A DNA stretch of 48,137 bases from Actinomycetes bacterium (GTDB lineage Bacteria; Actinomycetota; Actinomycetes; Propionibacteriales; Propionibacteriaceae), in NCBI GenBank assembly GCA_021781735.1, contig JAJXWF010000006.1, forward strand, positions 1-48,137. Reading direction: 5' to 3'. Below are positions 23,079-28,902 of the stretch, piece after piece (position 1 is the first letter of the stretch; the number at the start of each line of letters is the position of its first letter). The notes below the pieces were generated by a model. That model saw only the letters and a list, made by a program, of their open reading frames with translations, ran no database searches and had not been told where the DNA came from. The position numbers were made by a program, and so were the translations under genes.

Positions 23079-24329
23079 CTAGAGCCGGATGCCGAGCAGC
23101 GCGTCGACCGCGGAGGTGATCAGCGACGCCGGCACGGGATCGTGCCGGCCGGACGATCGCGACGCGGCGGCCCACGCGTCGAGTTCAGCGATCGCCGAAA
23201 CCGTGTCGAGATCATTGCGCAGGGCCGCGCGGACGCGGTCGATCACCGGTTCGGCCGCGACGGCACCCGACGCCTCCGCCCCCGCGCGCCAGGCGGCGAG
23301 CCGCGAGGTGGCGGCGTCCAACTGTCCGGGGGTCCACTCCCAGTTCTCGCGGTAGTGATGGGCGATCAGCGCCAGCCTCACCGCCATCGGGTCGGCCCCC
23401 TCGGCGCGCAGCCGCGAGACGAACTCGAGGTTGCCGAGGGACTTGCTCATCTTCTGACCGTCGAGGCCGACCATGCCCGCGTGCACGAAGGACCCCGCGA
23501 ACGGCCGGTGGGTCGCGGCGTAGCCCTCGGCGGCGCACATCTCGTGGTGGGGGAAGACGAGGTCGGAGCCGCCGCCCTGAACGTCGATCGTGGGGCCGAG
23601 ATGGGTGAGGGCGATCGCGGTGCACTCGATGTGCCACCCGGGACGTCCCCGCCCGAGCCGGGACTCCCAGGAGGGCTCTCCCGGGCGTTCCAGCCGCCAC
23701 ACCAGACAGTCGAGCGGGTCACGCTTGCCCCGACGGTCGGGATCGCCGCCGTTCTCTGCGAACACCCGCCGCATGGTCGAGGCGTCGAGGTGCGACACGT
23801 CGCCGAAGCCGGGAGTGCGGGTCGAGCTGAAATACCAGTCCGGATGGTCGCGATCATCGATCTGGTAGACCGCGCCCTCGGCGCGCAGGGTCTCGACGAG
23901 ATCCGCGACCCCGTCGACGCTCTCGACCGCGCCGATGTAGTGCTCGGGCGGGATGATCCGCAGGGCACGCATGTCCTCGCGGAACAGCTCGATCTGCTCG
24001 GCGGCCAATTCCCTCCAGTCGCGACCGGTCTGCTGGGCCCGCTCGAGCAGCGGGTCGTCGACGTCGGTGACGTTCTGGGCAAAACGCACCTGCAGTCCGA
24101 GATCACGCCACTGACGGTTGACCAGGTCGAACGCGAGATAGGTGAAGGCGTGGCCCAGGTGGGTGGCGTCGTAGGGGGTGATACCGCACACGTACATGCG
24201 GCCGGTGCCCTCGCGGGGGCCGGCCGGTCTCAGGGTGCCGGTCGCCGTGTCGTGGAGCCGCAGCGAGTCGTCGACCCCGGACGAGCGGTATCCGAGCGCG
24301 GGGACCTCGGGGGCGTCCCATGACCTCAT
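23079..24329 (-). CDS. mshC: Cysteine:1D-myo-inosityl 2-amino-2-deoxy-alpha-D-glucopyranoside ligase (mycothiol biosynthesis)
   Basis: MshC-type [46 protein letters not shown]. Confidence 0.95.
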
Positions 24330-24979
24330 CGTGACTCCTCGTGTGTGGTGGACGCCGACCGGCCGAGTCGCGGGGGTCGAGTGGCATCCACCCGCGCCCG
24401 GAGCCGGTCTCGGACGTCCGGCCAGTCGTCGGCAATGACTGAGAACACCACGGCGTCCCGCCATGTTCCATCGGCCCGACGCTTGTCGCGGCGGGTGACG
24501 CCCTCGCGGCTGGCCCCGATCCGGGCGATGGCGGCGATCGATCGGGCGTTGAGCGCGTCAGCCTGGATCCGCACCCGGCCCCACCCGTGCTCGAAGACGT
24601 GCGCGAGCAGGAGCAGCTTGCACTCGGCGTTCACGCCGGTGCCCCACACCCGCGGGTCGTAGGCGGTCCAGCCGAGGTGGGTTCGCTCGTGAGCGGGCTC
24701 CCACTCGCCGAGCGATGTGGTGCCCACCACGGTCCCGGCGTCGGGACCGGCCACGATGCGGACCGCGAACGGCCGCTCGGCGCCGAGGTAGCCCCGCAGA
24801 AAGTCGGCGAACCCGTCCGGTCGTGGATCGTAGGCGGCGGCCCCGCCGCCCCACCCCCCGGCGAAGACCTCCGGATGGTGCAGTGCCGCGGTGAGCGGGC
24901 CGAGGTGACCCTCGTGCAGCGGCTCCAGTTCGACGAACCGGCCTCGCAGGGTCACGGGCAGGGGGATCCTCGGGCTCAC
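24326..24979 (-). CDS. GNAT-family N-acetyltransferase (RimJ/RimL type)
   Basis: [21 protein letters not shown]..; 4-bp overlap with mshC. Confidence 0.88.
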
Positions 24980-25072: not shown

Positions 25073-25645
25073 ATGACAGAGCTCTTTCTCGTCCGCCACG
25101 GCGCCACCGAGTGGAGCCGCTCGGGCCGGCACACGTCGGTGACCGACCTGCCCCTGCTGCCCGACGGCGAGGACCAGGCGCGCCGGGTCCGGGCCAAACT
25201 GGCCGACATCGGGCTCTCCCCCGACGACTTCGGTCTCGTCCTGTCCAGCCCCCGGTTGCGCGCCCGCAGCACCGCCGAACTGGCCGGGTTCAGCCCGGAG
25301 ATCGACGAGCGGCTCGCCGAGTGGGATTACGGCGACTACGAGGGGCGCACGAGCAAGGAGATCCGCGGCGACGTGCCCGGCTGGCGCATCTGGACCCATC
25401 CGCTGCCCGGGGGCGAGACCCGGACCCAGATCATCAACCGGCTCACCGATGTGGTGCGCCGGGTGCAGGCGTCGGGGGTCGAGCGGGCGATCTGTTTCGG
25501 CCACGGGCACAGTTCACGCGTGCTCGCCCTGTGCTGGCTCGGCATCGACATCGCCCGCGGTCAGAGCTTCCCCCTGGAGACCGGCGCCGTGTGCGTGCTC
25601 GGCCACGAGAAGGAATCGCCCGCGATCGTGCGCTGGAACGCCTGA
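25073..25645 (+). CDS. Histidine phosphatase superfamily protein
   Basis: ELFLVRHGATEWSRSGRHTSVTDLPL, EWDYGDYEGRTSKEI, CFGHGHSSRVL. Confidence 0.9.
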   Translation: MTELFLVRHGATEWSRSGRHTSVTDLPLLPDGEDQARRVRAKLADIGLSPDDFGLVLSSPRLRARSTAELAGFSPEIDERLAEWDYGDYEGRTSKEIRGDVPGWRIWTHPLPGGETRTQIINRLTDVVRRVQASGVERAICFGHGHSSRVLALCWLGIDIARGQSFPLETGAVCVLGHEKESPAIVRWNA

Positions 25646-25664: not shown

Positions 25665-26432
25665 TCAGATCGGGGGCCAGGGGATGACCGGCCAGCGCTC
25701 TCCTGGCTCGGGAAGGGTCCCCGCGGCCAGCAGCGCGGTGGCCCGCTCGCGGGTCGCCGAGACCTCCTCGGCCGTGAGCCACGGATCGAGCACCCCGGCA
25801 TCGACCGCCTCGACGGCGCCTCTGACGAGGGCGAGTTCCGCGGCGTCCAACTCGTCGCCGGCCCACCCCCACAGCACGGTCCGCAACTTCGGCTCGGTGT
25901 GGAACGACACCCCATGGTCGACGCCGAGAACCCGATCGTCGCGCGTCTGCAGGATGTGGCCGGCCTTGCGGTCGGCGTTGTTGATGATCACGTCGAACAG
26001 CGCGAGCCGCCGCAGTCGCGGATCGTCGGCGTGGATGAGCGCGACGTCCCGATCGTGGGAGTCGACACCGATGACCACCCCGAACCAGCCCGGGGGGACC
26101 TCGTCGGCGGCCACGAGAGCCACGAGGTCGCCACGCTCGGGTTGATCGACGAAGCACTGCAGCGCCCCGCGCCCGAGGGGCGCCTGCTCGACCATCACCG
26201 TGCGGGGCACGACCTCGAACCCGCTCGCCCGGGACAGCTCATAGGCCGCGACCTCACGGTGGGCGAGGCTCCCGTCGGGAAAGTCCCACAGCGGCGCCTC
26301 ACCGGCACGCGGCTTGTACACGAACCGCTGCCCCTCGGCGTCGGCGAGTAGAAAGGTGGCGTTCGACGCTTCGACGAGTCGCCCCAGTACCTGCCAGCCG
26401 CCGTCGGTGTCCCCGGCGAGGTGCCCGGTCAT
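25665..26432 (-). CDS. SCO1664-type protein, PI3/4-kinase-like fold
   Basis: Kinase-like motifs ALFDVIINNADRKAGHIL (catalytic loop-like) and VLGVDHGVSFH (DFG-like); 4-bp overlap with the DUF3090 gene. Confidence 0.88.
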   Translation of the reverse strand: MTGHLAGDTDGGWQVLGRLVEASNATFLLADAEGQRFVYKPRAGEAPLWDFPDGSLAHREVAAYELSRASGFEVVPRTVMVEQAPLGRGALQCFVDQPERGDLVALVAADEVPPGWFGVVIGVDSHDRDVALIHADDPRLRRLALFDVIINNADRKAGHILQTRDDRVLGVDHGVSFHTEPKLRTVLWGWAGDELDAAELALVRGAVEAVDAGVLDPWLTAEEVSATRERATALLAAGTLPEPGERWPVIPWPPI

Positions 26433-27001
26433 TCGAACAGCGGACGCCGGTAGCCGTTGGACCGCGGGCAGATGTGACCCTCGGGGTTGATCGGCTGGCC
26501 GCAGAACGGGCACGCGGGACGCCCGGCGGCCACCAGGCTGCGGGCGCGGGCGACGAAGTCACGGGCCTGGTCGGGGGTGATCTTCACCGACAGCGACTCG
26601 TTGTCGGGTCGCTCCCCGCTGAACGGGTAGTCGCGCTCCTCCTCCTCGTCGTCGTCGGCCACCGTGAACATCTCGACCTGAACCGCCGAGAGTTCGGCGT
26701 CCCAGGCGATCGTCATCGTGCCCGCCCGGAAGTCCTCATCGAGCGGAGCGTCGAGGGGGTCGAGGTCGTGCGCAGTGGTGCGGGTGGCGGGGATCTCGAG
26801 CAGTCCGTCACTCAGCCGCGCCAACTCGTCGAGCACTCGCTCGAGATGGTCGGCGAGGACCTGCACCTGCTGCTTCTCGCAGACGACGCTGGTCAGCCGG
26901 CTGCCCTGCCGGGCCTGCACGAAGAAGGTGCGCTCCCCGGGACGGCCGACCGTGCCGGCCACGAACCTGTCGGGAAATTCGTAGCGGTGGACCAGAGCCA
27001 T
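26429..27001 (-). CDS. DUF3090-family protein with C-terminal CxxC...HxC zinc-ribbon-like motif
   Basis: MALVHRYEFPDRFVAGTVGRPGERTFFVQARQGSRLTSV...RPACPFCGQPINPEGHICPR; strong GAAGGAG RBS. Confidence 0.9.
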   Translation of the reverse strand: MALVHRYEFPDRFVAGTVGRPGERTFFVQARQGSRLTSVVCEKQQVQVLADHLERVLDELARLSDGLLEIPATRTTAHDLDPLDAPLDEDFRAGTMTIAWDAELSAVQVEMFTVADDDEEEERDYPFSGERPDNESLSVKITPDQARDFVARARSLVAAGRPACPFCGQPINPEGHICPRSNGYRRPLFE

Positions 27002-27168
27002 GGAACATCTCCTTCAACTGGGCTGCTTCATCTGGGCTGGTTCAACTGGACCGGTGCGTCGGGACCGGCCGATGCGGACGGAGCCGGTGGGCCGGATTCC
27101 GGTGGGTGGCACCGGTCGCGGGCGCTGACCCCAGCCTAGTTGTCCGCCCGTTGCCCGACACCGGATCG

Positions 27169-27861
27169 TCAGGCGGTATGCCCGGCGCCCCCGCCCGGTT
27201 CGGGTCCGCCGGCGGGCCCGGTGAACCGGTCGACGAAGCCGCGCACCTGCCCGGACAGCGAGTTGACGGTCACGACGAACGGTGAGGAGTCGCCGCTCGG
27301 GTAGTGCACGACGCTCACCGACCCGGGGTCGACGCCGATCCGCTGAAACCGGTCGAACGGTTGTCCGAGGGCGTCGGACAGGATCGCCTTGATCGGATCC
27401 GCATGGGTGACCAGCAGCCAGGCGTCACGCTCCCCCAGGCCCGCGTTCCAGGCTCGGACGGCTCCCACGACGCGCTCGTGCATCGCGATCATCGACTCAC
27501 CGCCGGGGAAGGTCACCTCGGAAGGACGGCTCTGAATCCTCCCCCAGAGATCCTCCCGCCCGAGGTCGCTCAGCGCCCGGCCGGTCCAGGCGCCGTAGTC
27601 GCACTCGATGACCCGCTCGTCGGGATGCACCGGGGGCCGGGCGCCGGCCCACGAGTCGAGCGCCAGGTCGAGCGTCTGGTGGCAGCGCAGCAGTGGCGAA
27701 TGCACGGCGAGGGCGAGGTCGATCCCGCGGAGCCGCTCGCCGATCCCCATGGCCTGCGACGTGCCCGTGTCGTCGAGGGCGACTCCCGGACGGCGTCCGG
27801 CGAGGATGCCTTCGGTGTTGGCGGTGCTGCGCCCGTGCCGGGCGAGGATGACGATCGGCAT
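27169..27861 (-). CDS. MSMEG_4193-family putative phosphomutase (histidine phosphatase superfamily)
   Basis: VILARHGRSTANTEGILAGRRPGVALDDTG; LLVTHADPIKAILSDALG; next to DUF3090 and SCO1664 genes. Confidence 0.9.
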   Translation of the reverse strand: MPIVILARHGRSTANTEGILAGRRPGVALDDTGTSQAMGIGERLRGIDLALAVHSPLLRCHQTLDLALDSWAGARPPVHPDERVIECDYGAWTGRALSDLGREDLWGRIQSRPSEVTFPGGESMIAMHERVVGAVRAWNAGLGERDAWLLVTHADPIKAILSDALGQPFDRFQRIGVDPGSVSVVHYPSGDSSPFVVTVNSLSGQVRGFVDRFTGPAGGPEPGGGAGHTA

Positions 27862-27936
27862 GCAACCAGCCTAGGGGCGCCGTCGCGGACGCCGGGCCGC
27901 GGCGCCCGCCGGCGTCCACTGGCTAAGCTCACCCGG

Positions 27937-28902
27937 GTGAGTCAAGCGATCAGACGCGTCGGCCGGTCGGGACTGTCGGTATCCCGGCTGGGACTGGGCA
28001 CCATGACCTGGGGGGCCGACGTGACACCGTCGACGGCCCGCGACCTCGTGCGCCGGTTCGCCGACTCGGGGGGCAACCTCATCGACACCGCCCCCGCCTA
28101 TGGCAACGGGGCGGCCGAGAGCATCATCGGCAAGCTCATCCACACCGAGTTGCGCCGCGACGACGTGGTGATCGCGACCAAGGGAGGCTTCGGCCTGCGT
28201 GGGGGGCAGCGGGTGGTCGACACGTCACGCGGCGCACTGCTCGACGACCTTGCCGGCTCGCTGCGACGGCTGCACACCGATCACGTCGACCTCTGGCAGG
28301 TACACGCCTGGGGGCCGGCGCCGCTCGAGGAGACCCTCGCCGCCCTCGACCATGCGGTGAGCAGCGGGATGACGCGCTACGTCGGGGTGAGCAACTTCGT
28401 CGGCTGGCAGACGGCGCGGGCGGCCACCTGGCAGCAGGCGATCCCCGGACGCGCCCACCTGGTGAGCACCCAGGTCGAGTATTCGCTCGTCGCTCGGCGG
28501 GTGGAGCTCGAGGTGGTGCCGGCAGCGCTCGCCCACGGTATGGGCGTGTTCCCGTGGTCGCCGATCGGACGCGGCGTCCTCAGCGGGAAGTACCGCTCGG
28601 GCACGCCCCGCGACTCGCGGGGCGGATCGGACCACCTGTCGTGGTTCGTCGACCCCTATCTGGAGCAGAAGTACCGCGCCGTCGTCGATGCGGTCTGCAC
28701 CGCCGCTGACGGACTCGGCCTCACCCCGGCACAGGTGGCACTGCTCTGGGTGCGCGACGCGCCCGGCGTCACCGCTCCCGTGCTCGGCGCCCGCACCCTC
28801 GGGCAACTCGACGAGTGTCTGGCGGTCGACGACCGGGTACTCCCGGACAGCATCGTGTCGGCTCTCGACGACGTGACCGGCGGACCGAACCTGCTCCGCT
28901 GA
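27937..28902 (+). CDS. Aldo/keto reductase
   Basis: LSVSRLGLGTMTWG, GGNLIDTAPAYGNGAAES, VDLWQVHAWGP, YVGVSNFVGWQ. Confidence 0.93.
   Translation: MSQAIRRVGRSGLSVSRLGLGTMTWGADVTPSTARDLVRRFADSGGNLIDTAPAYGNGAAESIIGKLIHTELRRDDVVIATKGGFGLRGGQRVVDTSRGALLDDLAGSLRRLHTDHVDLWQVHAWGPAPLEETLAALDHAVSSGMTRYVGVSNFVGWQTARAATWQQAIPGRAHLVSTQVEYSLVARRVELEVVPAALAHGMGVFPWSPIGRGVLSGKYRSGTPRDSRGGSDHLSWFVDPYLEQKYRAVVDAVCTAADGLGLTPAQVALLWVRDAPGVTAPVLGARTLGQLDECLAVDDRVLPDSIVSALDDVTGGPNLLR

Follow-up and report, generated by a model that had tools for sequence, protein, structure and literature searches.

In the window, the 48,137-nucleotide stretch of actinomycete DNA analyzed here, three adjoining minus-strand genes (Table 1) form a unit whose arrangement is conserved in Actinomycetota far past chance. 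In the best supported view of this unit, a kinase-like protein and a histidine phosphatase are the core and the DUF3090 protein is accessory. We infer that the two enzymes would carry out a cycle of phosphorylation and dephosphorylation on one shared substrate, a small or lipid molecule more likely than a protein; this is the reading that we favor, and we hold it tentatively.

The trio itself is already known. The family descriptions of TIGR03848, TIGR03847 and TIGR03843 mention it, and Rv2133c-Rv2135c is the probable counterpart locus in M. tuberculosis. The earlier note had proposed an undescribed system, a claim that does not survive since the families are catalogued and the linkage of S. 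coelicolor SCO1664 to mshC has been published (PMC4255298). Each of the three proteins exceeds its curated family cut-off, as the assignments of that note require, and its coordinates, strands, gene order and overlaps are exact. The window unit resembles the catalogued trio in these scores and in its order, strand and proximity to mshC, as in Streptomyces, Mycobacterium and Nocardioides, but differs in being separated from mshC by an acetyltransferase gene and by another, convergent gene for a histidine phosphatase.

Table 1. Genes of the unit and of its surroundings on the mshC side, with positions in the window
Feature	Position	Strand	Place	Evidence
Phosphatase, MSMEG_4193/TIGR03848 (Rv2135c family), histidine-phosphatase superfamily	27169..27861	-	Trio gene 1	TIGR03848 226.3 bits (curated cut-off 203.85); PF00300 E 2e-42
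DUF3090/TIGR03847 protein, C-terminal CxxC...HxC	26429..27001	-	Trio gene 2	TIGR03847 225.1 bits (cut-off 117.25); PF11290 210.4 bits (cut-off 27), E 2e-62
Kinase-like protein, SCO1664/TIGR03843 family	25665..26432	-	Trio gene 3	TIGR03843 308.2 bits (curated cut-off 172.4)
ATGA overlap, 4 bp, DUF3090 stop/kinase start	26429..26432	-		Read from sequence
Second histidine phosphatase, convergent to trio	25073..25645	+	Local insertion, outside conserved unit	PF00300
GNAT acetyltransferase	24326..24979	-	4-bp overlap with mshC; local insertion	PF13302
mshC, mycothiol cysteine ligase	23079..24329	-		TIGR03447 612.4 bits (curated cut-off 485.1)

The trio lies upstream of mshC, and its three genes would make up one operon-like unit with the opposing enzyme pair at its heart. 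The overlap of the DUF3090 and kinase genes suggests translational coupling. A scan of positions 26900-28000 for promoters and terminators found none. Besides the window, only one of 80 named loci, all of them from Actinomycetota and collected by a scan of genome contigs, has the two intervening genes between trio and mshC. It belongs to the nearest named relative, a Propionibacteriaceae MAG (L112) with a kinase 93% identical to that of the window. The insertion is therefore local, as none of the other 79 loci shows these genes. On the phosphatase side, where uppP lies in several Actinomycetes, the neighbor in the window is an aldo-keto reductase.

In order to determine how widely the trio is conserved, a sample of 198 Actinomycetota genomes from 56 families was searched; the counts of co-occurrence given here ignore kinship. 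The kinase family was found in 81 genomes and DUF3090 in 82, with both present in 81, neither in 116 and a single mismatch, G164, in which the contig stops just past DUF3090. A partial kinase match of 18.9 bits in G166 was left out as spurious. Order and strand were identical in all 76 complete trio loci, so that the co-conservation claimed in the earlier note is upheld. Of the loci with an incomplete appearance, most are situated at contig ends (L049, L076, L110 and L111), and L094 is a genuine exception. Those genomes without a kinase that were tested have no phosphatase either, save G247. The trio is kept together across most of the deeper actinobacterial lineages, and all but three of the 56 families are uniform for its presence or absence. 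It is widespread in the phylum, occurring in Streptomyces, Corynebacterium and mycobacteria. We also looked to its neighbors for a function. Their names were taken from representative sequences and not from family searches, and they proved lineage-specific (acyl-CoA synthetase with Ppx; FrhB-like; ProRS with RecO; PhoR with MGMT; citrate synthase) and pointed to no common function.

The kinase-like motifs were confirmed by alignment. Residues S23, N24, K40, P41, E60, D154, R155, K156, H159, D172, R184, T185, W188 and R230 and a C-terminal PWP are invariant across the family. By position, judged from motif order and fold, K40, E60, D154 and D172 would be the beta3 lysine, helix-C glutamate, catalytic-loop aspartate and DxG aspartate of PI4K/FAM20 kinases. 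At the fifth residue after the catalytic aspartate, where kinases have a metal-binding asparagine, every member has His159, and because of this exchange catalysis may be altered. An AF2 model of the protein (pLDDT 93.1, pTM 0.91) matched PI4K-II beta (E 8e-7), Fam20C (E 5e-6) and PI4K-II alpha (E 1e-5) in Foldseek, with weaker matches to CtkA, Rio2 and HipT. The family profile retrieved PI4K2B from the PDB at E 2.6e-5. The window protein scored 17.3 bits against PF00454 (E 0.0047), below the gathering cut-off of 27.1, and 47 of 50 relatives matched this family at E values up to 0.1, the best being 9.7e-14; HipA_2 was weakly matched by 9 of the 50. Apart from the change of asparagine to the invariant His159, both the predicted fold and the catalytic residues are those of a PF00454-type kinase. 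The SCO1664-family protein thus models confidently as a kinase of the PI4K-II/FAM20 type. The possibility of a pseudokinase is not supported, the catalytic set being invariant.

With PI4K-II the protein shares the predicted fold, the beta3 lysine, the helix-C glutamate, the DR catalytic loop and the DxG metal site in addition to the profile match, but it is a small, single-domain protein without membrane-binding parts, has DRKxxH in place of DRxxxN and falls under the PF00454 cut-off. With FAM20 (the protein kinase FAM20C and the xylosylkinase FAM20B) and HipA-like proteins it shares the fold superfamily, and the FAM20 matches in Foldseek are significant; however, FAM20 proteins belong to the secretory pathway, the window kinase has no such extension, and its sequence similarity to this group is weaker than that to PI4K-II. 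The substrate class is not fixed by the fold, since PI4K-II, FAM20 and HipA folds span lipid, sugar and protein kinases.

In 79 phosphatase homologues the catalytic residues R8, H9, R59 and H153 are invariant and E86 is conserved at 99%. The family member Rv2135c of M. tuberculosis forms a tetramer and has acid phosphatase but no phosphoglycerate mutase activity (PMC3866925), which speaks against the mutase proposed in the earlier note and suggested by the name of the family. It weakly hydrolyzes pNPP, PEP, fructose-6-P and glycerol-1-P, with a broad specificity and Km values in the mM range, was found in membrane fractions and has been suggested to work like Rv2136c (PMC3866925). The window protein is like Rv2135c in family, in its conserved catalytic residues and in the phosphatase chemistry expected of it, but has RHG where Rv2135c has RHA. 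No mention of MSMEG_4193 was found in the literature searched.

Less can be said of the DUF3090 protein, which a literature search found named in two survey papers without a function or a functional test. C164, C167 and C178 are conserved at 99% and H176 at 97% in its homologues, and the four residues form a probable zinc site that sits C-terminally in the AF2 model (pLDDT 86.6). Comparison of this model with PDB folds gave no significant match (best E 0.096), and a profile search of the PDB gave none. Two strand-rich repeats, both ending in a helix, make up part of the model, which also gave a weak match to PURA (E 0.15, probability 0.60). A PUR-like domain joined to a zinc site is possible and may serve as a lead.

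Which of the three proteins form the core is indicated by natural variants. In four loci of class Actinomycetes (L094:8955-10263, L198:857-2391, L210:5909-7274 and L211:3643-5034) the phosphatase is followed directly by the kinase without DUF3090. These pairs occur as a second copy in G008 and with the sole kinase copy found in G352, G447 and G462, and their kinases have all motifs intact. DUF3090 is therefore probably accessory. In the trees of both kinase and phosphatase the pairs cluster with families f28 and f43 from outside the class and not with the host class, whose clade has support values of 100/99 and 100/98, respectively. The simplest reading is that a module of these two genes crossed from one class to another, and this apparent joint transfer without DUF3090 marks the kinase and phosphatase as the core. 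Their pairing is not absolute. In G247 (L209:5611-8140) mshC, DUF3090 and the phosphatase are kept while the kinase is cleanly gone, leaving about 80 bp between mshC and DUF3090, and four Pseudonocardiaceae loci, from Umezawaea, Saccharopolyspora, Lentzea and Actinokineospora (L136, L154, L164 and L189), have DUF3090 and the kinase with no family phosphatase within 6 kb on that side. The apparently transferred pairs without DUF3090 and the G247 locus without the kinase point to the parts worth studying first. Separately, family f86 has uppP between the phosphatase and DUF3090 (L192:7600-10200, L193:5100-6600 and L195:7440-9750, with an aldo-keto reductase also in L192 and L195), and the unit is therefore split in this family.

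In the cycle that we favor, the SCO1664-family protein would be a working small kinase that adds a phosphate, and the phosphatase of the MSMEG_4193 family would remove it again. The substrate common to both would most likely be a small hydroxylated metabolite or a lipid head group and not DUF3090 itself. The DUF3090 protein would be an accessory zinc protein acting as scaffold, regulator or substrate presenter. A more specific version, which we regard as speculative and rather unlikely in its full form, is an ancient actinobacterial cycle in which the PI4K-II-type kinase and the histidine phosphatase would act on one undescribed phosphorylated metabolite or an inositol or glucosamine-inositol derivative, gated by a zinc protein without a fold match among solved structures, and whose two enzyme genes could pass between classes as one module.

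The strongest alternative, unlikely in our view, is a signaling cassette in which the kinase phosphorylates DUF3090 or a client recruited by it and the phosphatase reverses the modification. The protein kinases FAM20C, HipT and CtkA are among the fold matches, HipA_2 is weakly matched by some relatives, and the genes of DUF3090 and the kinase overlap, all of which would fit such a protein switch. However, the pairs without DUF3090 keep intact kinases and were apparently transferred together with the phosphatase, and DUF3090 is thus not the sole kinase substrate. Small-molecule substrates are also usual for branch-1 histidine phosphatases.

A tie to mycothiol was examined at greater length. Chandra and Chater (PMC4255298) count SCO1664 among the signature proteins of actinobacteria and, with respect to mshC, call it ‘invariably closely linked’. 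Of the 198 genomes, 18 have an mshC above the TIGR03447 cut-off; these belong without exception to the class of the window and carry the trio, and 63 of the 81 trio genomes have none over this cut-off. A second MshC-like group, scoring about 380-446 bits and so exceeding the background of cysteinyl-tRNA synthetases, adds 23 genomes, of which 21 have the kinase. When MshA-like was defined as at least 360 bits, the thresholds for MshA and MshC paralogues being judgement calls, such a protein was found in 72 of the 81 trio genomes versus 4 of the 117 others (trio only in 9, neither in 113, kinship ignored). Because the presence of the trio varies within just three of 56 families, this association is mainly one of clade structure and shared ancestry.

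Within class Actinomycetes, the presence of the kinase matches that of mshC in almost every one of 158 sampled genomes, and here mshC is a recurrent neighbor, missing from several loci even so. All seven f80 genomes of this sample, several on a single contig, lack the kinase, mshC and the unlinked mshA, a joint loss that is real. A co-absence of kinase and mshC in G215, G296 and G332 was rejected as a true loss and is probably due to assembly gaps, as these genomes have mshA and lack the linked locus alone. Among 169 Actinomycetales genomes, 59 have kinase and mshA, 33 the kinase only, 11 mshA only and 66 neither. To count all of the 33 as free of mycothiol does not hold, since f86, f90, f91 and G422 are ambiguous: the 14 f86 genomes have a divergent MshA-like protein, with mshC adjoining the trio in all four loci examined, and f90, f91 and G422 have a third type of glycosyltransferase in common with the window's own genome, which carries mshC. 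Of this kinase-only set, inspection leaves just G384 and G444 as genomes that carry the trio but no credible mshA.

The link of the trio to mycothiol thus stands as statistical and not obligatory, being decoupled both ways, and ‘invariably linked’ does not hold. For the earlier note this means that the mshC linkage is right locally and recurs in the class but not outside it, that profiling against mshA and mshC yields a strong association with MshA-like proteins that is mainly clade structure, and that a functional necessity is not borne out. A tie to inositol, also suggested there, is conjectural. In class Actinomycetes the unit would have settled beside mshC and would tend to be retained or lost with mycothiol synthesis, neither requiring the other. 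So loose a tie turns further work away from the assumption of a mycothiol function.

These counts also bear on the proposal that the phosphatase is MshA2, dephosphorylating GlcNAc-Ins-P while the kinase and DUF3090 regulate this step, which we consider quite improbable. The association with MshA-like proteins, the position beside mshC in class Actinomycetes and the joint absence in f80 agree with it, and no gene is known for MshA2, the literature naming the activity only. However, ten f88 genomes have MshA above the cut-off (522-575 bits) with no kinase and with phosphatase matches at background level (97 bits or less), so that a universal MshA2 is rejected. In addition, no MshA-like protein above paralogue level was found in the trio genomes G007, G017, G062, G068, G180, G189 and G384, the association tracks clades, and a biosynthetic phosphatase leaves the opposing kinase unexplained.

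Very improbable, finally, is an envelope function in which the substrates of the phosphatase are phosphates of polyprenyl or other lipids, with the kinase restoring the phosphate: uppP adjoins or sits inside the unit in several Actinomycetes, Rv2135c was found in membrane fractions with an Rv2136c-like action proposed (PMC3866925), and the closest fold match of the kinase is a lipid kinase, but uppP is not a recurrent neighbor outside the class, an aldo-keto reductase takes its side in the window, and Rv2135c was assayed on soluble phosphates, which it hydrolyzes poorly.

Some minor observations concern the mycothiol genes. The MshC-like proteins of 380-446 bits, under the TIGR03447 cut-off, occur outside class Actinomycetes in f28, f43, f46 and others (such as G130, G016, G125, G100 and G150). 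The best MshA-like protein detected in the genome that holds the window (L212:627-2234, contig C21) is of the third glycosyltransferase type, as in f90 and f91, and runs past the contig end. The f14 genomes (G049, G060, G071, G082 and G093) have MshA above the curated cut-off (471-488 bits) with no MshC-like protein that stands out, and perhaps make another glucosaminyl-inositol product.
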